From a virus, in the IMG/VR virus record IMGVR_UViG_3300044858_003263, positions 1-29,266 of that record: DNA of 29,266 nt; one strand, 5' to 3'. The translations under genes and the position numbers were made by a program. Shown in pieces: positions 1-25,157 of the stretch. Below the pieces are notes generated by a model. That model did no database searches and had not been told where the DNA came from. It worked only from the letters and a program-made list of their open reading frames with translations. Position 1 is the stretch's first letter. Each line of letters starts with the position of its first letter.

Positions 1-1270
1 GCGTGGTTCGGACGCGAACTTCGTAGTAGCTGTAGCTCGCCGCGGTGCTGCTTGCCTTGACCGGAACGAGCAGCGTGTCACCTCGGGCGAGGTTCGTGAC
101 CGTGGAAGCCGCTGCGTAGTCAGTTCCGACCGTCCCACCCGTGTGGCGAAGGCAAAGCTGATTTTCGTCGGACCCGTACGTCTCCCAGTCCGCATCGGCA
201 AAGACCTTCCACCAGCCCTTGGAGTCTCCGTTGCCAGAGCTTGCGCCCGTGTGGTGATTTACGTTCGTGACGTTCGTCGAGAACCCCGCGGACACCATCC
301 GGTAAAAGTCGACTCCGCCGCCGAACCACTGGTTTTCCCCCGCTCCGCCCGACGAATGCCACGGCCCCATGTCGTTCGTGAGGTAGGTGCCACGGTCCCG
401 CTTGGTCGTCGCGTCCATCAATCCGCGGTGGAGCTGCCGTTCGTCGTTCCCGCTACCGAGCAGCGTTCCGCCCCAATCCTGTAGCGAGATCACGGTCATC
501 GCCCTGCCATCGCTGTCCACGGCGCAGTTGGCGTAGGCGGCGTCGTTCGTCGCGTCGTAGTTGCTGTCGTTGACCTCGGCGTTTTCGGGGGTGTGGGTTC
601 CGGGGTTCGACGCATTCCAGCAGGGGAAGCCGACGAAGACGCCTTTGCCGAGGATCAGCGTCCCGTCTACCTCCATGTAGCCGTTACCGCAGTCGTGGAT
701 CGCGCAGTTCACGTCGTCGATCGTGTCGCGGTAGACGACCTCCCCCGCTGCTTTGCACGCGATGTCCGGCACCGCATCGGCCGTACACGTCACCGCAGAC
801 GAGCCGTCGCCGTCTGCGTCCCACAGGTACGCGACCTCGAATCGGCCGTTGCCGTCGACATCCGACGCAGACCCACCCCCGCTCGTCAGCGGAGCGCAGT
901 CGATCGTCATTACGCTGCCACCTGCGGTCGCATCGGTCGCCACGGCCTTTACCCAGCGCGTGCCGGGGGTGAACGTGACGGCGGTCGTCGTCGAGGCGGT
1001 AAAAGCCTTGATGAGCGTGCCGGACGTGGCGGCCGTGGTCGCGGTCGTCACCGCGTACAGCGAGGCGTCGTCTCCGCTCGCCTGCTGGTAGCGGACGGTG
1101 CAGAAGCCGGACACCGAAATCGCCTCAGACTCCGAAGTGTCGCCTGTGGCGAACTTGACGACGAACGACTGCGTGCGGGACATATTGTTCGCAGAGTCGA
1201 CCTGCGGCCTACTCCACGCTGGAGCGGCCGCCAGGAAAACGAGAACGAAAAAGAAGAGAAAGTGTTTCAT
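1..1270 (-). CDS. Secreted beta-helix-like phage surface protein (3' end beyond window)
   Basis: The frame is open from an ATG at 1270 to the window edge, giving at least 423 residues with no stop. The start follows a GAGGAA ribosome site and lies 2 nt after the stop of the internal virion gene, so it is the last visible gene of the late operon. Residues 1-20 form a clear Sec signal peptide: a Lys/His n-region, a Phe/Leu/Val/Ala core and an A-P-A-W-S cleavage region. A Thr/Ser/Ala-rich beta region follows, then many Cys residues (including GFC, TIDC, VTC, IAC, NCAIHDC, GFPC and CAVD). From about residue 180 the pattern (GNGYMEVDGT, LILGKGVFVG) suggests right-handed beta-helix rungs as in tailspikes. 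An exported, Cys-rich product is odd for a virion protein. It could be a tailspike, a depolymerase or a cell-surface protein; the fold is my inference. Confidence 0.72.
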   Translation of the reverse strand, partial: MKHFLFFFVLVFLAAAPAWSRPQVDSANNMSRTQSFVVKFATGDTSESEAISVSGFCTVRYQQASGDDASLYAVTTATTAATSGTLIKAFTASTTTAVTFTPGTRWVKAVATDATAGGSVMTIDCAPLTSGGGSASDVDGNGRFEVAYLWDADGDGSSAVTCTADAVPDIACKAAGEVVYRDTIDDVNCAIHDCGNGYMEVDGTLILGKGVFVGFPCWNASNPGTHTPENAEVNDSNYDATNDAAYANCAVDSDGRAMTVISLQDWGGTLLGSGNDERQLHRGLMDATTKRDRGTYLTNDMGPWHSSGGAGENQWFGGGVDFYRMVSAGFSTNVTNVNHHTGASSGNGDSKGWWKVFADADWETYGSDENQLCLRHTGGTVGTDYAAASTVTNLARGDTLLVPVKASSTAASYSYYEVRVRTT

Positions 1271-1272
1271 GG

Positions 1273-3771
1273 CTAATTCCTCGAGGACGGCAGCGCCGTA
1301 TTGATCGAAGTTCCGGGGCCGATCGGTTGGAGTGTTCTGTCTGCCGGGGGAGGCGCTTGAACGGATTGCTGCATGTCGATCATTTGGCCCTGGTCTGGCA
1401 TCAGATTCTCGAATGCAAGGAATGACGTATCCATCACGAGCAACTTCTGAAGTGCCATTGCTCGCATCGCGTGAGGCAAGTTGTCGTCCAGAAGGTTTCT
1501 GTAGGACTTGAGGTACTTCGGGTCAGTGAGCCTCTTCGCAGCCCCACCCAGAGTCACGAAGAGGGCGGCGCTCGTGGCCGCTCGGTCGATGAGCTGGAAG
1601 AACGGGTTGTTCGTTTCCCCGAAGATCGCCGTCATCGCTCCGCTCGTGGGCGCAAAGGTCCGAGCTCCAGATCCAAGCCCACCCAGAAAGACGCGGCGCG
1701 TGACGAGCTGGCTTACGTCGGGGACGCCAAACTCGAAAGCCTGATCCGTCAGGTCGAGAAGCTGCTCGAGCTGAATCGGGCTCACCCCGGACTTGCGGAG
1801 CGCGGTGGCCGTGGCCGCGTACGCGGGGGACGTGGGATCGTCCAGCCCGAGATCCTTGCGGAGCCTCTTCGTGTCCGTGATGGGGATCGCGCCGGGGGAC
1901 GAGATGGCGGTGTTCGCCCTGAATCTCGAAGCCAGCCACACGCCATACGACTCGCGGAAGAGCTTTTCGCCCTGACCCTGCTTCAGGTTCGTCGTCAGGA
2001 TCTTGTGCAGATCGTTGATGACGGACGGCTCTTTTGAGTTGAAGATGGTCTTGACCGTCTCGATCGGGTCGACCGTTCCGGCTCGCCTGCCGAGGGACAT
2101 ATTGTTCGCCGTCACGGGAGCGGTCAGCGCGACTCTTCCAAACTCCTGGTCGATCGAACGAATCAGATCGCCGACACGGCCTCCGAAGAGGTCGAGCGAA
2201 GACTTGTAGAAGTCGTCTGCCTTTTTCTTGGCGAGCTTTACCGCGTCCGGACCCTGCAAGTTGTCGGCAAAATCGCGACGCATCGCCGTAAGGGTGTCGA
2301 CGACAATCCCACCGGCGACGGTATCCGGGCCGCCAACCTCATCCACGAGGCTCTGGAGCCTCTGCATCGACCCTCTGAAGTCGAGAACTCCGGGCGCGGG
2401 ATCGGAACCCCTGAGTAGCTTAAGTTCTTTCTGGACCTTCGCGAGATCACCTCGCGCCACAGGCTTCTTGATGACCGTTCTGGTGATTTCGTTACCAGAG
2501 GCGTCGAGAAGTCCGGTCGACACCTCCTCCGGTTTCCCGATCACGCGATTGATCTTCGCCAGATTGGCAGCGACCGTAATGCCTGTGTTGGCAGGAACGA
2601 CTACGGCGCCACTGTCTGCCGCCGCTCTCTCGAAAGCCGCATACCTGCGCCCGTACTCCGATCTGGCAGCGACGAACGCCTCGCTCGCTCCATTCAGAAG
2701 ATTCGAGTTCGCCCGAGCGACGCGACGGCTCGTGCTGTCCGATCCTCGTCCGGCAAGCGCCTTGATCTCCGGGGCGACGGCCGAGAGAACGCTGTTGTAC
2801 GCCTTCCCGAACTGACCCGCGATCCGCTTCGTCTCCTCGACAAAGATCGGGTTGACGAACGGGAATCGGCCGACGCTCTCACTGAACCGCCTCGCGACCT
2901 GATTGCTCGTCACGTCACGAACGGACAGGTCGATGTTGTGGTCGCTCGCCATGCGGACGAGCTCGTTCGCTCGGTCCTCTGTCACACCCAGAACGCGCGC
3001 CAGCTTCTCTCGCGCGCCCCGTGCGCCGAAGACCGCGCCGCCCATCAGAGTCTCAATCGTGGCGTCGCCCAGCGCGCTCACGATGACATCGTTGACGATC
3101 CCGGGCGTCTGGGTTGCCGCCCTGGAGAACGCCTCCGATCGGCTCATCTTCTCGCCCGCGCCATCCGACTCTTGACGCAGCCTCTCGGCCTCCTCAAAGA
3201 TCGGGGCCAGCCCGCCGCCGGCAAGCGCGCCAGCATCCGCAGCGAGAACAGACCGAGCGGCCCGCATGAGCGGGAAGACGCTCTTGCCACGCATCTGCGG
3301 GCTAGCGGCCATGGCTGCCGGCAGAATGTTCCTGACCGTCTCGCCGATGTCGTCCATCCGCGGGCCTTGGCCCGTCACGAGGTCTTGGATGGACTGCAAC
3401 CCGATCAGGTCAGCAGTTCCCCTCGGACGCTCCGATCGGTCCATCGCCTGAATGAGGGGCCGCAGGGGTACGGTCACGGGGAGCTGGGCCGTCGAGAGCA
3501 ACTGGTCGAGCGGATTGGACTCGACGGGCGTCTCGAGGAATCTCGGCGGGGGATGAATTCCCTTCTTCATCGCGCGCGATTCGGACTCGGTTCGGATGCG
3601 ATCGGCAATCGCCTCCTCCGAGTTGTTGACCATGAACTCGTCGTCGGCAAACACCTCGCCCGCAACAGAGAGCGATTCGTTCTCGACGGCCGTCTCGAAC
3701 GCATTGACGCGATTCGTGAGTCGGCTCACGGGATCGAACGTCTGGATGATCGCCTCGCGGGATCCGGCCAT
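1273..3771 (-). CDS. Large internal virion (ejection) protein, 832 aa
   Basis: This is a long, mostly helical, Ala/Arg/Asp-rich protein with no enzymatic motif that I recognise. Its position after the tail genes, next to two other helical proteins, fits the internal virion proteins that short-tailed phages inject to form a conduit across the cell envelope. The ATG at 3771 lies 1 nt after the preceding stop and about 11 nt behind a GGAAGG site. A GTG at 3792 would add seven residues and overlap the upstream gene. The central part (about residues 250-600) is a run of amphipathic helices. The C-terminus becomes Pro/Gln-rich and disordered. No peptidoglycan hydrolase signature was found. The class is inferred from position, size and composition, not from a diagnostic motif. 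Confidence 0.72.
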   Translation of the reverse strand: MAGSREAIIQTFDPVSRLTNRVNAFETAVENESLSVAGEVFADDEFMVNNSEEAIADRIRTESESRAMKKGIHPPPRFLETPVESNPLDQLLSTAQLPVTVPLRPLIQAMDRSERPRGTADLIGLQSIQDLVTGQGPRMDDIGETVRNILPAAMAASPQMRGKSVFPLMRAARSVLAADAGALAGGGLAPIFEEAERLRQESDGAGEKMSRSEAFSRAATQTPGIVNDVIVSALGDATIETLMGGAVFGARGAREKLARVLGVTEDRANELVRMASDHNIDLSVRDVTSNQVARRFSESVGRFPFVNPIFVEETKRIAGQFGKAYNSVLSAVAPEIKALAGRGSDSTSRRVARANSNLLNGASEAFVAARSEYGRRYAAFERAAADSGAVVVPANTGITVAANLAKINRVIGKPEEVSTGLLDASGNEITRTVIKKPVARGDLAKVQKELKLLRGSDPAPGVLDFRGSMQRLQSLVDEVGGPDTVAGGIVVDTLTAMRRDFADNLQGPDAVKLAKKKADDFYKSSLDLFGGRVGDLIRSIDQEFGRVALTAPVTANNMSLGRRAGTVDPIETVKTIFNSKEPSVINDLHKILTTNLKQGQGEKLFRESYGVWLASRFRANTAISSPGAIPITDTKRLRKDLGLDDPTSPAYAATATALRKSGVSPIQLEQLLDLTDQAFEFGVPDVSQLVTRRVFLGGLGSGARTFAPTSGAMTAIFGETNNPFFQLIDRAATSAALFVTLGGAAKRLTDPKYLKSYRNLLDDNLPHAMRAMALQKLLVMDTSFLAFENLMPDQGQMIDMQQSVQAPPPADRTLQPIGPGTSINTALPSSRN

Positions 3772-3772
3772 A

Positions 3773-5323
3773 TCAGTTCTGCCTTCCGACACGGCTCATC
3801 GCCGCCGCCTTAGCCGCCCGGATCGCTTCACTCGCGGTCATGTCCTTGTCCCTCAACGCCTCGACTGGCGACTTCTCGGGCTGGATCTGAACCTGGGGCT
3901 GCCCGGGTGCCGCCGCCTCCGGCTGGATCGACTGAATGCTCGGGATCTCACCCACCGACAGGCGCCCCTTACTGTCAAAGCTGGCTTCGGGCCTGAGTAG
4001 CTTGATGGACCGCATGATCGAGCCGTTCGCGTTTTCGATCTCTCGGAGAGACGCGCGGATTCGACCCTTGGCGCGAAGCTGCGAGGTGAAGAACGTGTTC
4101 ACGTCGGTGATGTTCCCGACCTCCTTCATCTCCTGAAGGGACACGCGGCCTCGGCTTCCTTCGACGATCAGGAACCACTTGAGCCGCGCCATGGCGAGTT
4201 CGGACGTGGAGAGTTCCCGCTGCCGCTCCGGGTCCATACCCTTCACCAGAACGGTGGACAGGCGCTCCTTGAGTTCGGCCGGCACGTCATCGCGGTTCAT
4301 CACCTGCTCGAACGTCCCGCCTTCGACGGCGAAGAGCTGACCGATGTCGTTCACGAGGCCGACGGCATTCGACAGGAACCGCTCCACGTCCGCGGTAGCG
4401 CCGCCCGACTGAACCGCGTCGATCTCCTTCAGGTTCTCGACGAGGTTGACGCCGAGGTCGAGCCGTTGCTGAAGGGCCACGAGTTCTCGAGCGTTCGAGA
4501 TCGCCCCCTCCGGCTGACCGCGCGTGAGCTCGAAGTCGCGCATCGCCGCAAGTCCGGCGGCGTCTTGCTTGAGTTGCGCCTTCTTGACGGGATCCTTCTC
4601 GTTCTCTGCCTTGCGAACCAGATCGCGGATCTGCCCGTTAAGGGCCATGAACTGCTTTGGCTGCCGGTCGATGAGCTGTTGCTCTTCAAGCTTCGACAGC
4701 GCGATCGAGTTGGAGAGGCTTCTGCCTGAAGCGGCGACGGCCGCCTCCTCGGCGCGCTGCTCGGATGCGAGCGTTTCGTCGAGTTCGATCTGAGCCGTTC
4801 GCTGCCGAGCCGCCTCCACTCCCTGCCCAGCCCCCAGCGTCGCGTCGATCGCCATGCCGCGATCCGCTCCTGGCGCCATCGCCATCTGCAAGTCCGATCC
4901 GAGCGCAAGCTGGGTCGCGAGGTTGGCCTCGGCCATGTTCGACCGGCCCACCTGATCGAACGTAGTCGGATCGTTCTGTGCGACGATGCCCGCGAAGTCC
5001 TGACCGCCGCCGTCGCCCATCAGGTCTTGCTCGGTGAAGTTCTTTGAGGTCACGTCCTGCGCGGTACGGCTCGCCGTGTCGACATCGGGCGCCATCGCGC
5101 GGAGCTTGTCCGCGAGGCCGGCGCGAAGCGTCAGCATGTCGAGCTTGTGCTTCTCGTCGGCGCGTGCTTCGTTCTTCGCGTCGATTGCCATCTGCCGAGC
5201 AAACTTCGCCTGCTCGATCTGGTCTTGAAGCGCCATCTCCTCGCGACGCGCCTTCTGATCGAAGAGCATCTTGACGAGGGTCGGGTCAACTGCACCGGCG
5301 TTTGCGTTGCCTTGGAAGGGCAT
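3773..5323 (-). CDS. Internal virion protein, coiled-coil rich, 516 aa
   Basis: The protein is strongly helical and charged. Its N-terminus (residues 15-60) is a heptad-like stretch of Lys/Arg/Glu/Gln/Ala. Long helices continue to about residue 440, followed by a Pro/Gln-rich linker and a short basic C-terminus. Such proteins next to a Gly-rich partner and a larger helical one are typical of the ejection-protein trio of podoviruses. The ATG at 5323 is 2 nt after the preceding stop. A start at 5344 would add seven residues and overlap the upstream gene. No enzymatic motif is visible. A structural or chaperone-like role inside the capsid is an inference from context. Confidence 0.7.
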   Translation of the reverse strand: MPFQGNANAGAVDPTLVKMLFDQKARREEMALQDQIEQAKFARQMAIDAKNEARADEKHKLDMLTLRAGLADKLRAMAPDVDTASRTAQDVTSKNFTEQDLMGDGGGQDFAGIVAQNDPTTFDQVGRSNMAEANLATQLALGSDLQMAMAPGADRGMAIDATLGAGQGVEAARQRTAQIELDETLASEQRAEEAAVAASGRSLSNSIALSKLEEQQLIDRQPKQFMALNGQIRDLVRKAENEKDPVKKAQLKQDAAGLAAMRDFELTRGQPEGAISNARELVALQQRLDLGVNLVENLKEIDAVQSGGATADVERFLSNAVGLVNDIGQLFAVEGGTFEQVMNRDDVPAELKERLSTVLVKGMDPERQRELSTSELAMARLKWFLIVEGSRGRVSLQEMKEVGNITDVNTFFTSQLRAKGRIRASLREIENANGSIMRSIKLLRPEASFDSKGRLSVGEIPSIQSIQPEAAAPGQPQVQIQPEKSPVEALRDKDMTASEAIRAAKAAAMSRVGRQN

Positions 5324-5325
5324 GG

Positions 5326-6555
5326 TTAGAAACCCGACATCCATGGATTGTTTGCGTTCTGCGTCGCGTACTGATTCCCGGTCGATCCGGGGCCGCTGAA
5401 GTCGAGCCCGGCGGTCCGGCCACTCGTTCCGGTGTTGCCAAGCTGGCTGAGGTAGGCGTAGTTCCCGATCGCGCTACCCAGCGAACCCAGTCCGCCCGCA
5501 ATGCCGTTCGCCAGCGCGCTCGAAGAGGTCATCTGAGCTTGACTCCGCAGCGCCGCCGCCGCCTGAGCCTGCTGCGCCGCGATCTGCGCGGAGTTCATCG
5601 AAGCCTGCGATCCGCTGTTTGCAATCCCGGCCGCTGCCGCCGTCGCCGGATTGAGCGCCGCTTGGATCGCGTTGGACATCCCTAGCTGCTGCTCGATGAG
5701 CCGGATGTTCTGGTCGAGCTTCGCGTCCGTCAGGTTCTCGAACATCGTCGCGGGGTTGAGTCCGCCGAAGTTCGCCATCAGGCCGAGTCGGCTCTTGAGA
5801 TCCTCGAGCTGCCGCTCGTCGCGCGCGAAGAGATCCTTCGACAGCGGGTTGCCCGGCTGCCCCGTTCGCGCGAAGTCTGCGGCCCCACCCAGAAGCTCAG
5901 CGGCCGTTCCCGCCGCATTCGCGCGGTTCAAAATGGTGTCCGTGCGGATTCGGTCGAGGCCGTTGTCCTTGAGCTTTTGCATGTCGCTCTTGAACGCATC
6001 ATCTTGCTCGAGAATCCCCTTCAAGTCGTCAAAGGTGATTCCCTGCTCTCGAAGCACCTTCTCTAGTCGACCGAGGTTCTTGATCGGGATTGGGTTTTCA
6101 AGCGTGTTCAGAACGCTGGCGCCCCACTTTCCTGTGCGCTTCCAGTCGTCCCACATATTATTCTTGGCAAGCCGGCGCCCCTCCGGAATCGTCGAGGGGT
6201 CCCTCAAGAATCCGGCAAGCTGCTCTTGGGAAAAGTTCTGACCTCCGGGGTCGAGCAAGAGCGACGGATCGCTGCGGATCCCAGTCAGCGCATTGATGAC
6301 TCTCGCGCGCGTCTTGTCTGCCATCGGACTGGAGCGAAGCTGAGCAATGAGCTGCTGGTACGGACCCGGGATCGTGTTGATGTTCCCGAATCCAAGAGGG
6401 TCCAGGCCGGCGAACTGCGTGGCTTGCAGGGCGTAGTCGAGGGCGGGGGCATACTGAACACCCTTCCCCTGCCCGCCGGCTGCGCCGCCCAACAGCCCAC
6501 CCGCGACCTGCCCGCCCGCTCCAAGAAGGCCGCCGATGATTGCTCCCCATGCCAT
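5326..6555 (-). CDS. Internal virion protein with glycine-rich N-terminus, 409 aa
   Basis: The N-terminus (residues 4-30) is a Gly/Ala/Leu run with repeated GGLLG elements. This kind of hydrophobic small-residue segment occurs at the start of many phage DNA-transfer proteins and may insert into membrane during ejection. The middle is helical and charged. Residues about 290-370 are Ala/Gln/Ser/Asn-rich, and the tail is Gly/Ser/Asn-rich. The gene follows the tail fibre directly (start 2 nt after its stop) and precedes two further helical proteins. The ejection-protein call rests on composition and order; a tail assembly protein is the alternative. Confidence 0.68.
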   Translation of the reverse strand: MAWGAIIGGLLGAGGQVAGGLLGGAAGGQGKGVQYAPALDYALQATQFAGLDPLGFGNINTIPGPYQQLIAQLRSSPMADKTRARVINALTGIRSDPSLLLDPGGQNFSQEQLAGFLRDPSTIPEGRRLAKNNMWDDWKRTGKWGASVLNTLENPIPIKNLGRLEKVLREQGITFDDLKGILEQDDAFKSDMQKLKDNGLDRIRTDTILNRANAAGTAAELLGGAADFARTGQPGNPLSKDLFARDERQLEDLKSRLGLMANFGGLNPATMFENLTDAKLDQNIRLIEQQLGMSNAIQAALNPATAAAAGIANSGSQASMNSAQIAAQQAQAAAALRSQAQMTSSSALANGIAGGLGSLGSAIGNYAYLSQLGNTGTSGRTAGLDFSGPGSTGNQYATQNANNPWMSGF

Positions 6556-6557
6556 GG

Positions 6558-7913
6558 CTAGATCCTTTCCACGACGAGGCGGGCGCGAGACTGCGTGGCG
6601 AGCCCGGTCGCTACCGTGGGATTAAAAATGATCGTCCCGGCGCCGTTGCCAGACCCCTCGGTGTACACGTCGGTCGTAAAGGCGTAGGTCGATCCGGGGG
6701 TCGGGTTGTCGACGATGTAGCTGAGCGTCACAGTCCCGCCGCTGAACTCGTTGTTTCCCGAGTAACAGGTTCGCCATGCGTACGGCCCTTCGACCGTCGT
6801 CGCCGGGTTGGCGTCGATGGTCTGCTGAATGCGGAAGGCGTACTCGGTCTGCTCAGTACCACCGCCGCCGGTCGTGCTCTTGAAGCAGAGCGTGACTTCG
6901 TACATAAGCCGGTATCCGGCGTACGGGATGTACTGGGAAAGAGAAAGGCCGGATCGGTTGCTCCAGGCACCCGCGCCCGCGTTCGTCAGCGTGTCATCAG
7001 CCGTCGAGTAGACGGCCGTTCGGGTCGGGATGCTCGGCACCTCGTGCGGATAGGCATCGGCGAGCTCGAAGGCCCAGACCTCGAAGATGTTCCAGTCTGC
7101 GCCGGTCGCCGTACCCGTGATCGAAACCGTGATGTCGCCCGGGGCCGTCGTCGGCTTGACGATGCCCTGAGTGATCGTCACGGCCGTCGATGCGGTCGTC
7201 GAGTCCGAGATCGAGATGTTGCTGTAGTCGCCAGACGCAAGCGCGCCGGTCGTCGCGAGAGTGATCTCGCCCGCCGTCCTCGAGTACGCCATGCCGATCA
7301 GGTACTTGGTGTCGGTCTTGAGGCCCTTCAGCGTGAACGAGATGCCCTCGTTGCTGGCATCCGTCAGGATCCGCAGCGACCGCTTCTCGACGCCGATCTC
7401 GGTGTGGTTCGCGTTCGGGTTCTCGATGACCACATCGGCCGGAGTGCCAACCAGAGTCCAACTGTTCGGGGCCTGCGTTGCCGTCCCTGTGTGCAGCTCG
7501 AATCCAGGGTTCTGGATCATGTTCCGGCCGACGATGCACGGCTCAAACCACGCTGCCGCCGTCGCCGACCCGGTGTCCATGTAGTAGACGTTCGTCAGGT
7601 AGCCGCGGCTCGCTGCGTGCCTGTAGCGGAGACGTACCATTTCCTGCGAGAGCGTGGCGGGAAGGCTCGGGGTTCCGGTATCGCCCGGATTCGTCGTCGC
7701 CGAGTAGGCTGCAATATCGTCCGCGAGGTCGAGAACCTTCGACATTGCGATGTCGGCAAGCTGCGCGTTCGTGATCGCAGCCGAGCCCGACAGGTTCGTC
7801 GTGTCGAGGTTGCCGTTCACGGTCGACAAAATGTTGTCGAACTCGGCATTGACTTCGGTCGCGCTCGCCGTCGTCCCGGTCACGAAAGTAGTGATTCTGG
7901 AAATGAGGCTCAT
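6558..7913 (-). CDS. Tail fibre protein, 451 aa
   Basis: The first 55 residues have the layout common at the virion-attachment end of podovirus tail fibres: the segment around ASATEVNAEFDNI, then NLDTTNLSG and the ITNAQLADI repeat. From about residue 130 the sequence (NMIQNPGFELHTG, NSWTLVGTP, and later Thr/Gly/Ser beta strands) resembles a carbohydrate-binding beta-sandwich. This suggests receptor recognition by the distal domain. The start codon abuts the stop of the beta-propeller gene. No autocleaving chaperone domain is evident. The role is well supported by the N-terminal signature and position; the receptor is unknown. Confidence 0.8.
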   Translation of the reverse strand: MSLISRITTFVTGTTASATEVNAEFDNILSTVNGNLDTTNLSGSAAITNAQLADIAMSKVLDLADDIAAYSATTNPGDTGTPSLPATLSQEMVRLRYRHAASRGYLTNVYYMDTGSATAAAWFEPCIVGRNMIQNPGFELHTGTATQAPNSWTLVGTPADVVIENPNANHTEIGVEKRSLRILTDASNEGISFTLKGLKTDTKYLIGMAYSRTAGEITLATTGALASGDYSNISISDSTTASTAVTITQGIVKPTTAPGDITVSITGTATGADWNIFEVWAFELADAYPHEVPSIPTRTAVYSTADDTLTNAGAGAWSNRSGLSLSQYIPYAGYRLMYEVTLCFKSTTGGGGTEQTEYAFRIQQTIDANPATTVEGPYAWRTCYSGNNEFSGGTVTLSYIVDNPTPGSTYAFTTDVYTEGSGNGAGTIIFNPTVATGLATQSRARLVVERI

Positions 7914-12064: not shown

Positions 12065-12078
12065 GATTCAATCCCTCC

Positions 12079-13122
12079 TTAAGCCGTCTGGCTCGTGACT
12101 TTGTTGTTGAACTTGCGGCCGCTGCACACCAGATTGCCCTGGAAGATGATCTTCACGCTGAAGGCATCCTGGAACGCCTGATCCATCACCGGCGTCATGT
12201 TGAACAGGGCGCCTTCCGCGTACGCCAGGAACAGCGTGTCGGTGTTGATGAAGTAGGTGTACCCACTCGGGCAGTAGGGGTCGTGGAAGACCGTGGTGTC
12301 GCGGAACTTGAGCTTCGAGAAGCCAAGCTGGCCGGTCATCGTGTCCGACGCGAACCGGACCTGCGGGACGAGCGCCGCTTCGTAGAAGAGGTACACGTCG
12401 TCCGTGGTCAGGAGCACGTTCGGGGTCACGGCACCCTCGGTCGCGTTCAGATTGGCCTTGCGCCAGTTGGCGAGGCCAGTCGCAGCGAACGAGCCGCCCG
12501 CGAACGACACCGAAGCCGGAGCCGTTCCCTTGGCCGACAGGCCGCGCGAGGTCCACTTCGAGTAGGTCGAAGCGGCCGCGCCCTGAAGGCTCGTCGAGCC
12601 CGCCGCGACGATCGAGTCGAGCGACGTGATCGCGTTGGCCGGAGAGGCCGTCGAGAACAGGTCACTCGCCACGACATCGACGAGCGCCGAGGTCGAGTCG
12701 GTCTGCTTGTGGGTCCAGAGATCCGCAAGCTGGGCCGAGCCCCGGTTGTTGCGCCGTTCAAGGCCGCTCATGATGGCGGTCGCGCCATAGAGCTTCCAGT
12801 TGGCGCGCGTGCCACGCAGCGTGTCGCTCGTGTCCGGGCTGAACGACGAGTACCCGCTCGACATGCGTCGTGCGGAACCGTTGCTATCGAGCTTGGCACG
12901 AACCTTGATCGACTCGCCGGACATCGAGCGAGCCGCCGTACCAGAAGGAGATCCGTCCGCGCCGATCTGGCCCGAAAGGACCGAACCGATCTTTCCCGCG
13001 AAGATGGAGATGCCAGGGTGAGCGTCGAGAGCATTCTCGAGAATCACCGGATGGATCGCCTCAGCGGTCGTGGAAAGGATCTCGTTCTGAGTACGGGTTT
13101 CAGTCAGATCGGCAATCGCCAT
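12079..13122 (-). CDS. Major capsid protein (HK97-fold class), 347 aa
   Basis: The gene follows the scaffold gene and has a strong AAGGGGAAAG ribosome site. The N-terminal arm (TQNEILSTTAEAIHPVILENAL) is helical, then a flexible Gly/Ser stretch follows. The core contains elements typical of capsid proteins: LWTHKQTDSTSALVDVVASDLFS, the strand VTPNVLLTTDDVYLFYEAAL, and FRDTTVFHDPYCPSGYTYFINTDTLFLAY, the last resembling the P-domain/spine region of many phage coat proteins. Length and position are right for an HK97-fold coat. The exact subfamily is not determined. Confidence 0.86.
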   Translation of the reverse strand: MAIADLTETRTQNEILSTTAEAIHPVILENALDAHPGISIFAGKIGSVLSGQIGADGSPSGTAARSMSGESIKVRAKLDSNGSARRMSSGYSSFSPDTSDTLRGTRANWKLYGATAIMSGLERRNNRGSAQLADLWTHKQTDSTSALVDVVASDLFSTASPANAITSLDSIVAAGSTSLQGAAASTYSKWTSRGLSAKGTAPASVSFAGGSFAATGLANWRKANLNATEGAVTPNVLLTTDDVYLFYEAALVPQVRFASDTMTGQLGFSKLKFRDTTVFHDPYCPSGYTYFINTDTLFLAYAEGALFNMTPVMDQAFQDAFSVKIIFQGNLVCSGRKFNNKVTSQTA

Positions 13123-16487: not shown

Positions 16488-18110
16488 CTACATGCCCGCC
16501 CGCGCGAGGCCCGAGGCCCCGCCCATCGGCACGGTCTGTCGCCGGGTCTTCTGGTGGCGAACGATTATGCGCCGCGTCTTCGCGAAGTCGGTGTCGTCGA
16601 GCTTCACGATCTTCGTGTGATGCGAAATCGGGGGATGGCTCTGGACGAAGTAGCGGGTCATGTCGTAGCCGTCGTCGCGGCCGACCATGGCGCCCGTGGC
16701 ACTCGGGTCCTTGACGCCCTCCTTGTAGGTGAGGGCATCGAACTCCTCGACAATCTCGTGGTTGTCGGAGTGGATCATCATGTAGGGCTCGCCGGTCTTC
16801 GGATTGACGGCGAGGAAGTTCATCAGCTCGAGGTGCCCGGCCTTCCGATCGGCCTGCGCCTTCTTGTCCATCTCGAAGATGGGGAGGCCCCGGCGCCGGA
16901 AGACCTCGACGACCTCGGGCTTCTTCGGGTCGCCGATCATGCGCTTGACGCGCCCTTCCCACTTGTTCTCGGCAATGATCTTCTTGACGCGATCGACGAC
17001 ATCATCGGCCGTCATGTGGTTCTCGTAGATCGAGTGGCGCAGAAAGACCTGCTGCGGACCGACCATCCAGAAGCCGACGACCGTGTAGTCCTCGTAGCCG
17101 TAGTCGAACGCGATATGCACGTCCGCGTTCTCGCACCACCGGGGCGTGTACGGGACGACGTGGGAGGGCTCGCCGCGCATACCCGTCTCGCGGCGGATGG
17201 GGACGACGCGGCCGCGGGAGAACGTCCACTGACCGCCGAACTGCTCGGCAAAGGCGTCGTCCTTCATGGCACGGCATTCGGTCAGGGCATTGAAGCAGTC
17301 GTGGCCGTTGTCGGGGCTGGGACCCTTGAGATCGTCCTGCGGGTAGATGAGGCCGGAGACGGCGCCGCCGCGGAGCTCGGCCTTCTGGTGCTCGATCCAG
17401 TACCGCTCGTACTGGTAGCCGGGGTTCGCGCGCGTCGTGAAGCTGAAGCTCTCGATCTTGAGCGCGGGGTTGCTCTTGCCGCGCTGAATCTCCTGAAAGA
17501 TCCACCGCGCGGAGTTGTCGGGGGTCGTCGGCCAGATGGACCGCTTGACGCGGGTCGAGAGGAACTTCGTCCAGACCAGCTCGGGCAGCCGGGCGGCTTC
17601 CGAGAGAATCGCCCAGTCGACCTCTTCGCCCTGAAGGACGTTGATGTTGGTCGCCGACTTGACGGTGATGATGTCCTTGACTCGTTCGTGGGTGTTCGGA
17701 TTCTCACACCAGTCGATGATGATGGTCATGTCGCCTTGCGACACGTTGTTGATCTTGCGTTCGATCTTGAACTTGAAGCCGACCGAGGCGGCCTTTTCGA
17801 CGAGATCGGTCCAGGCGTAGTCGAACTCTTTGGCGAGGACGTAGTTCGGGGCGACGATCCAGCCAATCTGGGTCTTGGCGTTGGGATCGAGCCCTTGCTG
17901 GGCCTTCGCGCCGTGGATCAGGATGTCGGGGAGAATGTCCTTCCACGCGCTGTACGACTTCGCCGTACGGGCCGGGCAGGAGACGATCTTGGTGCGGGCG
18001 CGGGAGTTGTGAAACGCATCGACGGCGGGCTCGTGCGTGCGATAGCCGAATGCACGCCAGATGAAGCGCCGGGTTTCAGCCTCGGCGGCTTCGATCTCCT
18101 GCGGCGTCAT
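16488..18110 (-). CDS. terL: Terminase large subunit (ATPase and nuclease), 540 aa
   Basis: The motor that packages DNA into the procapsid. The P-loop region near residues 45-52 reads CPARTAKS, a divergent Walker A in which the Gly before Lys is Ala. Walker B with its catalytic acid is VDWAILSEAA near residues 164-173. The C-terminal RNase H-like nuclease begins with VHIAFDYGYEDYTVVGFW near residue 332, containing the first metal-binding Asp; later acidic residues include IGDPKKPEVVEVF and MVGRDDGYD. A TTG at 18131 would add seven residues, but I prefer the ATG at 18110 with GGGAA just upstream. Its usual partner, the small subunit, lies about 3.5 kb away beyond an oppositely oriented island. 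Confidence 0.93.
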   Translation of the reverse strand: MTPQEIEAAEAETRRFIWRAFGYRTHEPAVDAFHNSRARTKIVSCPARTAKSYSAWKDILPDILIHGAKAQQGLDPNAKTQIGWIVAPNYVLAKEFDYAWTDLVEKAASVGFKFKIERKINNVSQGDMTIIIDWCENPNTHERVKDIITVKSATNINVLQGEEVDWAILSEAARLPELVWTKFLSTRVKRSIWPTTPDNSARWIFQEIQRGKSNPALKIESFSFTTRANPGYQYERYWIEHQKAELRGGAVSGLIYPQDDLKGPSPDNGHDCFNALTECRAMKDDAFAEQFGGQWTFSRGRVVPIRRETGMRGEPSHVVPYTPRWCENADVHIAFDYGYEDYTVVGFWMVGPQQVFLRHSIYENHMTADDVVDRVKKIIAENKWEGRVKRMIGDPKKPEVVEVFRRRGLPIFEMDKKAQADRKAGHLELMNFLAVNPKTGEPYMMIHSDNHEIVEEFDALTYKEGVKDPSATGAMVGRDDGYDMTRYFVQSHPPISHHTKIVKLDDTDFAKTRRIIVRHQKTRRQTVPMGGASGLARAGM

Positions 18111-18141
18111 TTCCCGCGCGGGGGCCGTCAATCGGGGCGGC

Positions 18142-18435
18142 CTACTTGCTCGTCCAGACGATCAGGTCGAAGAGCGTCGATCCCGCAGCCGAGAACGTGA
18201 CGACGCCATTCGAGATGGACGAGATCGCGCAGTTCCCGGTCGGATAGGTGGGGACCCCGGAGCTCTGCGTCCCGGTGATCGCCGTTTCGATGATGCCGAC
18301 GCGCGTGCCGAAGCCGGTGTCGTGGGTATCGCCGTTGCCCGCGACGAGGGACCAGCGGTGCATGGACGCATCGCTGAGCGGGTGGGTGAGGTTCCGCTCG
18401 GGACCCCCATAGGTAACGACGGTGGCAGCGGCCAT
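18142..18435 (-). CDS. Small beta-rich phage protein upstream of terL, 97 aa
   Basis: A compact protein of predicted beta strands (TVVTYGGPERN, RVGIIETAITGT, GVVTFSAAGSTLFDLIVWTSK) ending in a hydrophobic strand. The start has a strong GGAGGACC ribosome site, and the gene is the first of the minus-strand late block. It is divergent from the plus-strand island gene at 18574, with a 14-bp palindrome between them. I do not recognise a family. Candidates are a small virion surface protein or a head fibre component. Confidence 0.65.
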   Translation of the reverse strand: MAAATVVTYGGPERNLTHPLSDASMHRWSLVAGNGDTHDTGFGTRVGIIETAITGTQSSGVPTYPTGNCAISSISNGVVTFSAAGSTLFDLIVWTSK

Positions 18436-18458
18436 AAAGGTCCTCCGGGGGCTGTCCT

Positions 18459-18472
18459 AACGAACGTTCGTT
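18459..18472. promoter_or_regulatory. Palindromic operator candidate AACGAACGTTCGTT
   Basis: A perfect 14-bp palindrome sits in the 138-nt divergent gap between the minus-strand late block and the plus-strand island. Its core AACGAACGTTC recurs at 21423-21433 on the other side of the island, where it reads TGAAC-GAAC-GTTCA. A dimeric regulator could bind here. About two perfect 14-mers are expected by chance in a window this size, so position is the main support. Confidence 0.4.
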
Positions 18473-24060: not shown

Positions 24061-25157
24061 GACGCGACACCTCCCCCGATGAGTTCGAGCTTGCGCTGCT
24101 GGATCATTTCGTACGCCTTGGCCCCCGCTTCCTTGGTTCGGCGGGCTCGGGCTTGAGCGGGGGACTCGGCGGTGATGGCCTTGGAGTCTCGAGCCGCGAA
24201 GCGCGCGGAGCGTCTGAGCCAAGTGCGGAACGTGGCGGGCCAGTCTGCCCGGATCTCCCCGAGGCTTCGGAAGTGGTCCCGGCAGGCGTCCCACTCGGCC
24301 CGGAGTCCCGAGAGGTCCATGCCCTGATCTGCGGCCCATGACCGGATCGCGTCACGCTGGTCCGGGTCGAGTTCGTCCGGGCAGACCGACCTCACCCGCT
24401 TGGAGCGAGCCTTGGGCGGGTCGGGGAGCGGCGCAGCCGCGGGCGCCGGAGGCGCCTCCTCCACTCCTTCTTGCGTCTTGCGTCTTGCGTCTTGCGGGGG
24501 CGTCTTGCGGAGGGGGCGACTCTCGGGCATCCCGATCTTCGCAAGCCCCTGAAAGTCCGACCATTTCTCCCAGCGAATGGCGACAATGAGTCGACCGGCG
24601 CGCGACTGCGGCGCGCGTGGCGGTTGACCGCCGGCTGCGTCGGACGCGCGCTTGAGCAGCGCCGCGGTTGCCTGAAACCACTCGCCTTCGACTCGATCAG
24701 CGCCGAACTCGGCGTGGAGTTGCCGCTCAAGGCTCGCGTGCGCCAGGGTCGGAATCCATCCGATGAGCTGCACATCTGCGCGCTCGCGCTTCAACGCATC
24801 GAAACGCTGCCAAAGACTCGAGGTCTTTCCGATCTTCACGAGCCTGGTAGACGGCGAGTGCAGAAAGTAAACGCCCGGAGCGCCAGTCCCAACAAGATCG
24901 ACGGAGATTGACAGCTTCTGCTGAAGACGAGCCAGGATGCCCATTGCCGCGTCCGGCCTGCGAACGTCGGCCAGCGACATCAACGCAGACTCGCTGAGCG
25001 TGATGCGGCAAGCGTCCTCCGCGCTAAGTCCGTTTCTCGCCCACTGGGTATTGAGTGCGGCCATCAGCCGAATCAGAAACGCGAGCTCGTCGTTCCTGAA
25101 GTCTTCATCTGCAATCGAATCCGCCACCCGGAACCAGTGTTTTCGCGGCGTCGCCAC
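24057..25157 (-). CDS. Replication initiator-like protein with embedded GIY-YIG domain, 366 aa
   Basis: GTG start behind GGGAGGGAAG. Residues 1-88 look like a winged-helix replication protein (KHWFRVADSIADEDFRNDEL, ITLSESALMSL, AMGILARLQQKLSISVDLV). Residues about 94-170 form a GIY-YIG domain of the T5orf172/MUG113 kind: GVYFL with Tyr97, VKIGKT, Arg118 in WQRFDAL, Glu144 in SLERQLHAEF, then GEWF. After a linker the winged-helix strand resumes (LIVAIRWEKWSDFQG, about 190-204). A long Pro/Ala/Arg linker and a C-terminal helical domain (PDELDPDQRDAIRSWAADQG, WPATFRTWLRRSARFA) follow. All expected GIY-YIG residues are present, so the inserted domain may be active. Confidence 0.72.
   Translation of the reverse strand: MATPRKHWFRVADSIADEDFRNDELAFLIRLMAALNTQWARNGLSAEDACRITLSESALMSLADVRRPDAAMGILARLQQKLSISVDLVGTGAPGVYFLHSPSTRLVKIGKTSSLWQRFDALKRERADVQLIGWIPTLAHASLERQLHAEFGADRVEGEWFQATAALLKRASDAAGGQPPRAPQSRAGRLIVAIRWEKWSDFQGLAKIGMPESRPLRKTPPQDARRKTQEGVEEAPPAPAAAPLPDPPKARSKRVRSVCPDELDPDQRDAIRSWAADQGMDLSGLRAEWDACRDHFRSLGEIRADWPATFRTWLRRSARFAARDSKAITAESPAQARARRTKEAGAKAYEMIQQRKLELIGGGVAS

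Follow-up and report, generated by a model that had tools for sequence, protein, structure and literature searches.

The late gene at the record end

The window analyzed here is an entire virus record of 29,266 bases. At its end, on the minus strand, lies an open reading frame (2 to 1270) that starts with an ATG and stays open for 423 codons up to the record boundary, its 3' end being beyond the record. The initial annotation described the product as an exported, Cys-rich protein encoded behind ejection-type genes, and its position there is confirmed, with a gap of 2 nucleotides separating its start from the gene ahead. That gene, an ejection-type late gene at 1273 to 3792 (minus strand; 839 amino acids, 0 Cys), returned no family match and, matching the gene order of MW202489 and BUCT555, comes after the genes for adaptor and stabilisation.

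The N-terminus of the product (MKHFLFFFVLVFLAAAPAWSRPQV) is charged at its start and hydrophobic in its core, with small residues ahead of the likely cleavage point. Its first 20 residues (MKHFLFFFVLVFLAAAPAWS; positions 1211 to 1270, minus strand) are predicted to form a Sec signal peptide that aligns with those of homologues in three other contigs (G001, G003, and G004). Signal peptides were called by a purpose-written rule that looks for charge, a core of hydrophobic residues, and small amino acids at -3 and -1; the cleavage point is not sharp here, the best cut falling after residue 15 by the rule and after residue 20 by eye. Only this one of the window's 15 late genes passes the rule, as does 1 of 82 late genes in four annotated relatives (MW202489, Mx8, BUCT555, and ppBjS10J-1), that one being annotated as a holin; as a control, 26 of 2,767 internal starts pass in the window and three of these relatives. 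Ahead of the start codon lies a ribosome-binding-site-like GAGGAA (1277 to 1282, minus strand). The closest homologue (G001) has no equivalent of the ATG that comes next in frame, at codon 30. The textbook signal peptide claimed earlier is thus borne out as Sec type by the rule, with a good ribosome site ahead of it, and on sequence grounds we regard the product as very probably exported by the Sec route.

Behind the signal peptide we distinguish a variable N-terminal domain (863 to 1210, minus strand; residues 21 to 136), predicted as a beta-sandwich in the G001 homologue, and a conserved core (455 to 862, minus strand; residues 137 to 272), which in a four-phage alignment carries the motif WDADGDGS and invariant cysteines at positions 162, 172, 189, 194, 217, and 249.

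Homologues and the predicted exported module

Taken alone, the sequence finds no homologue in phages or plasmids, in PHROGs, Pfam, or NCBIfam, or in a single-sequence scan of viral contigs. The family was found by alignment-based scans of viral contigs, which recover the core in three contigs besides the window. G001 (43,098 bases) has most head and tail genes in common with the window at 95 to 99%, G003 (24.5 kb) encodes a P22-type portal (P22_portal, E 1.4e-68) together with Phage_capsid_3, and G004 (11.5 kb) encodes a tape-measure gene (PHROG 167, E 0.0005), its core-bearing gene coming after the tail genes. A scan of genome_contigs with the four-sequence family alignment gave no match. In 4 of 4 core-bearing contigs the protein has its own N-terminal signal peptide, and the domain behind it differs, with a recognisable relationship limited to the window and G001; the core, which has invariant cysteines, is 76% identical between the window and G003. 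Relative to where the preceding late gene stops, the start lies at +2 nucleotides in the window, +24 in G001, and -4 in both G003 and G004. The possibility raised in the initial annotation, that a family alignment might place the start downstream of the hydrophobic segment, was examined in the four-phage alignment and did not occur, because all four homologues begin with a signal peptide.

The G001 relative supplies a full-length homologue and the genes behind it, with the window's own 3' end still beyond the record. Its 859-amino-acid protein begins with a matching signal peptide (MKHILFSLVLVFLAASPGWAKP) and is followed by genes for proteins of 524, 287, and 792 amino acids, a 97-amino-acid PEP-CTERM protein, a protein of 157 amino acids, and a DUF5675 protein. 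The exported gene is therefore last in the window because the record ends, and the claim that it closes the operon holds within the window only, G001 having four further module genes. The 524-amino-acid protein carries a signal peptide and a Pfam Beta_helix domain (E 5.5e-8, above the curated cut-off), and the 287-amino-acid protein a signal peptide and then a TFTAGTTAVASQVNANF stretch, with a match of 17 residues (E 0.003) to the window fibre at 6558 to 7913; the signal peptide of the 792-amino-acid protein is weaker (rule score, 4.37). Among 18 usable late and lysis-region rows in G001 (of 20, two with misplaced coordinates being left out), the 4 that pass the rule are all consecutive, and the other 14 fail. 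The 97-amino-acid protein ends in VPEP, a hydrophobic stretch, and RRRR; it scores 20.1 for PEP-CTERM TIGR02595 (cut-off, 16) and, narrowly under the cut-off of 20.7, 20.5 for Pfam PF07589. By the rule it has no N-terminal signal peptide, and the frame upstream of it closes after three codons.

We observe the same module in G005 (33.7 kb), a phage of the G003 type (97.6% DNA identity over 8 kb). Between G001 and G005, the last 210 residues of the 859-amino-acid protein are 94% identical, the 524-, 287-, and 157-amino-acid proteins 87.5%, 88%, and 95.5% identical, respectively, and the 97-amino-acid PEP-CTERM protein (L010 14262 to 14555 in G001; L036 5651 to 5941 in G005) 97% identical despite unrelated head genes. 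The 792-amino-acid protein of G001 and its 853-amino-acid counterpart in G005 (L010 11874 to 14252 and L036 3080 to 5641) are 36% identical overall, with ends about 85% and a middle about 30% identical, a divergence that would be expected of a diversifying binding part. In both phages the module runs into the 157-amino-acid gene and then DUF5675 or Amidase_2. This distribution suggests that the predicted exported, spike-like proteins form a mobile set exchanged by unrelated phages; the window TerL was not found in G003 to G006, whose records are possibly fragments.

Upstream of the exported gene, the 98.5% DNA identity between the window and G001 ends sharply at window position 4786, inside an ejection-type gene at 3773 to 5344 (minus strand). 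To the left of this point the C-terminus of that ejection protein, the last ejection gene, and the exported protein diverge from G001 as one block. The G001 ejection gene and its counterpart in G003 are 27% identical (E 7e-29).

Two further export candidates form a cassette in reverse orientation (18574 to 20578), which sits outside the late operon in the window phage, between terL (16488 to 18131) and a terS-like gene (21658 to 22218; so labeled by eye from its translation); a promoter scan of 17900 to 22400 found 0, with 0.6 expected. The initial annotation had counted at least three export signals in one phage, and for the third candidate (19304 to 20578, plus strand; 424 amino acids) this stands: it has a signal peptide (MRKSLLLLSLASSLCADPAFS) and shares 90% identity with a gene that lies within the G003 tail operon. 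The second (18574 to 19341, plus strand; 255 amino acids), with a hydrophobic segment at about residues 73 to 93 that ends GYAEIAAAAFAGF, is not textbook, because this stretch lies some 70 residues inside if translation begins at the ATG at 18574, and the part preceding it looks coding. This 62-codon extension (18574 to 18759), in which 8 codon changes relative to G001 are silent and 1 is replacing, is probably coding, as an unusually long pre-signal region. In G003, the gene ahead of the homologue of the third candidate encodes an exported protein of 562 amino acids, the place of which is held in L021 by an exported protein of 100 amino acids that shares its beginning and end but lacks the middle. 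Residues 152 to 373 of the third candidate are 38% identical to a signal-less 269-amino-acid protein of MW202795, the gene for which (L026 3453 to 4262) adjoins capsid genes. In phage searches, the 287-, 524-, 562-, and 792-amino-acid proteins had no match, and the best matches of the 100-amino-acid and PEP-CTERM proteins were at E 2 and E 6, respectively.

An integrase gene in G001 (L007 10436 to 12043; PHROG 1, E 3.4e-23) has a tRNA-like 3' end alongside (12068 to 12099), which makes G001 probably a temperate phage. ARAGORN called no tRNA at this site, and the putative attachment core had 0 exact matches in genome_contigs. The window itself holds, at 24469 to 24496, a perfect tandem repeat of four 7-base units (TCTTGCG).

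Cysteine content and fold

The abundance of cysteines noted earlier is confirmed, with 9 Cys in the 423 visible residues compared to 25 Cys in the 5,582 residues of the window's 14 other late genes. The mature parts of 11 exported proteins, of which three are truncated at contig ends, contain 110 Cys in 4,920 residues. Their Cys density is thus roughly fivefold that of the other late proteins in the window; seven such proteins of G003 contain 5 Cys in 2,599 residues. The Cys count is even in all 15 complete exported proteins, a set that reads the second candidate from 18760, its true start lying possibly 62 codons upstream, and counts the 792/853-amino-acid pair as exported despite the weak signal peptide. 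Because the 15 proteins come from about eight families, the odds of this parity arising by chance are closer to 1 in 250 than to 1 in 30,000. Within related exported pairs the counts differ by an even number (22 and 20; 12 and 2). Among Cys-containing non-exported late proteins, the count is even in 4 and odd in 5 for the window, and even in 11 and odd in 8 for MW202489 and Mx8 taken together. The even counts support oxidative folding of the predicted exported proteins outside the cytoplasm.

The beta-helix-like label given to the product in the initial annotation could not be confirmed: neither PHROG, Pfam, nor NCBIfam gave a match, no PDB sequence match was better than E 0.24, and the full-length G001 homologue has no Pfam hit. 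An AlphaFold model of this 859-amino-acid homologue, built with four sequences, has a mean pLDDT of 38 and is of low confidence outside residues 34 to 122, where a beta-sandwich is predicted at a pLDDT of about 60 to 78; Foldseek found no structure matching this sandwich at E 0.001. In the model of residues 480 to 859 (pLDDT, 32), strands recur every 22 to 25 residues. Foldseek returned no match for it at E ≤ 0.001; neither this strand spacing nor the 36 insignificant PDB matches, which include several beta-helix enzymes and the 9NA tailspike, is evidence of a beta-helix. A hydrophobic periodicity test for beta-helix rungs over residues 536 to 760 was negative (P 0.29). A beta-helix, predicted from the Pfam match, is supported at the family level for the 524-amino-acid neighbour only.

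Possible roles of the exported proteins

Four sequence-level observations bear on the role of the protein, namely, the signal peptide, the coupling to late genes, the Cys pattern, and the exchange of the module. From these we propose, with our confidence evenly poised, that the product is a Sec-exported, disulfide-bonded spike or adhesin working outside the cytoplasm and that its gene belongs to a mobile module. The gene is placed directly behind an ejection-type late gene; its product would cross the inner membrane via the signal peptide and then lose it, form disulfides in the oxidising periplasm during folding, as the even Cys counts would imply, and act, as an adhesin or depolymerase that is either surface-bound or released, on the surface of the host or on its polysaccharide. 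In the exported protein itself, no catalytic or binding domain was recognised. We favor a surface-bound or released protein because near-identical proteins occur in phages whose head genes are unrelated, because the PEP-CTERM protein travels with the module, and because envelope export has precedents in Lom and the Bdellovibrio MAT proteins.

The Lom gene lies in the tail region, and its product is a small outer-membrane barrel. PMC3342100 describes the lambda-type Lom as likewise prophage-encoded and exported, with an outer-membrane location and expression in lysogens. The window protein differs from it in being large, Cys-rich, and modular and in lacking a Pfam match, including any to the Lom/Ail barrel family at E 0.1. 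Mosaic adhesive trimer (MAT) fibres of Bdellovibrio bacteriovorus are, according to PMC10769870, encoded by bacterial chromosomal genes, with one conserved domain of about 130 amino acids in all 21 members. As judged from this published description, they resemble the present proteins in their phage-fibre-like modularity, in a signal peptide followed by a beta-rich domain, both predicted for the phage proteins, in variable, putatively adhesive ends, and in a proposed place outside the cell. However, the genes here belong to phages, the four homologues have different domains behind the signal, which is a misfit, and no S74 domain was found. Likeness to PEP-CTERM/exosortase surface proteins (TIGR02595) is restricted to the 97-amino-acid neighbour in G001 and G005, which, unlike them, has no N-terminal signal peptide and is phage-encoded. 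No description of such an exported module was found in the open-access literature, subscription journals being outside the scope of the search.

P22-type tailspikes of podoviruses likewise come after ejection genes and join a modular N-terminus to a body; they are right-handed beta-helices, and the classical ones are not known to have a signal peptide. That the window protein is itself an exported tailspike, maturing in the periplasm for its disulfides and docking onto finished virions at lysis, seems to us possible but doubtful. The slot after the ejection genes and the tight coupling to them fit such a tailspike, as do the change of the ejection C-terminus, the last ejection gene, and the exported protein as one block at 4786, the phage-type-specific N-terminal domain on a common core, as in swapped tailspikes, and the conserved ends and divergent middle of the 792/853-amino-acid pair. 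The similarity of the third candidate to the signal-less MW202795 protein beside capsid genes points the same way, and the same slot in MW202489, BUCT555, and ppBjS10J-1 holds genes lacking export signals, apparently for tail fibres, which weigh toward a virion role. However, the 524- and 287-amino-acid proteins are 88% identical across unrelated head genes, which tells against a specific dock; the 18574-to-20578 cassette lies apart from the late operon here; and no tailed phage is known to us in which a virion protein carries a cleaved signal peptide. We would only tentatively entertain the broader scheme, in which tailed phages with two or more unrelated types of head Sec-export disulfide-bonded spikes, mature them in the periplasm, load them onto virions at lysis, and trade the module and the PEP-CTERM protein as a unit. 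The pattern pointed out in the initial annotation, export signals on several spike- or fibre-type proteins in one phage, stands, and it recurs in other types of phage, where the signal peptides are conserved and the Cys counts even; virion status and assembly outside the cytoplasm do not follow from it, since a surface or secreted role requires no such assembly step.

A periplasmic helper of lysis or envelope opening, acting with the neighbouring lysis genes, is improbable. The G001 and G005 modules do lead into the 157-amino-acid gene and then DUF5675 or Amidase_2, but their proteins are large and modular, one even carrying Pfam Beta_helix, and do not resemble lysis factors, and the G004 gene follows tail genes. 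Less probable still, and in our judgment very unlikely, is that the protein stays inside the cell, its hydrophobic N-terminus being a membrane anchor or its true start lying downstream. Export is a prediction, and the cleavage point of the window copy, after residue 15 or after residue 20, is not sharp, but the ribosome site ahead of the start, the unconserved next ATG, the signal peptide in all four homologues, and the Cys parity argue for an exported protein.

If the exported spikes decorate the host, as in the surface-bound or released reading that we prefer, these phages would use an exchangeable set of fibres to manipulate the surface of the cells that they lysogenize or kill. If the spikes instead become part of virions, some of tailed-phage assembly would take place outside the cytoplasm, against the usual picture. 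Either way, the module marks phage genes that are usually taken as tail proteins and whose cellular place would be misjudged.
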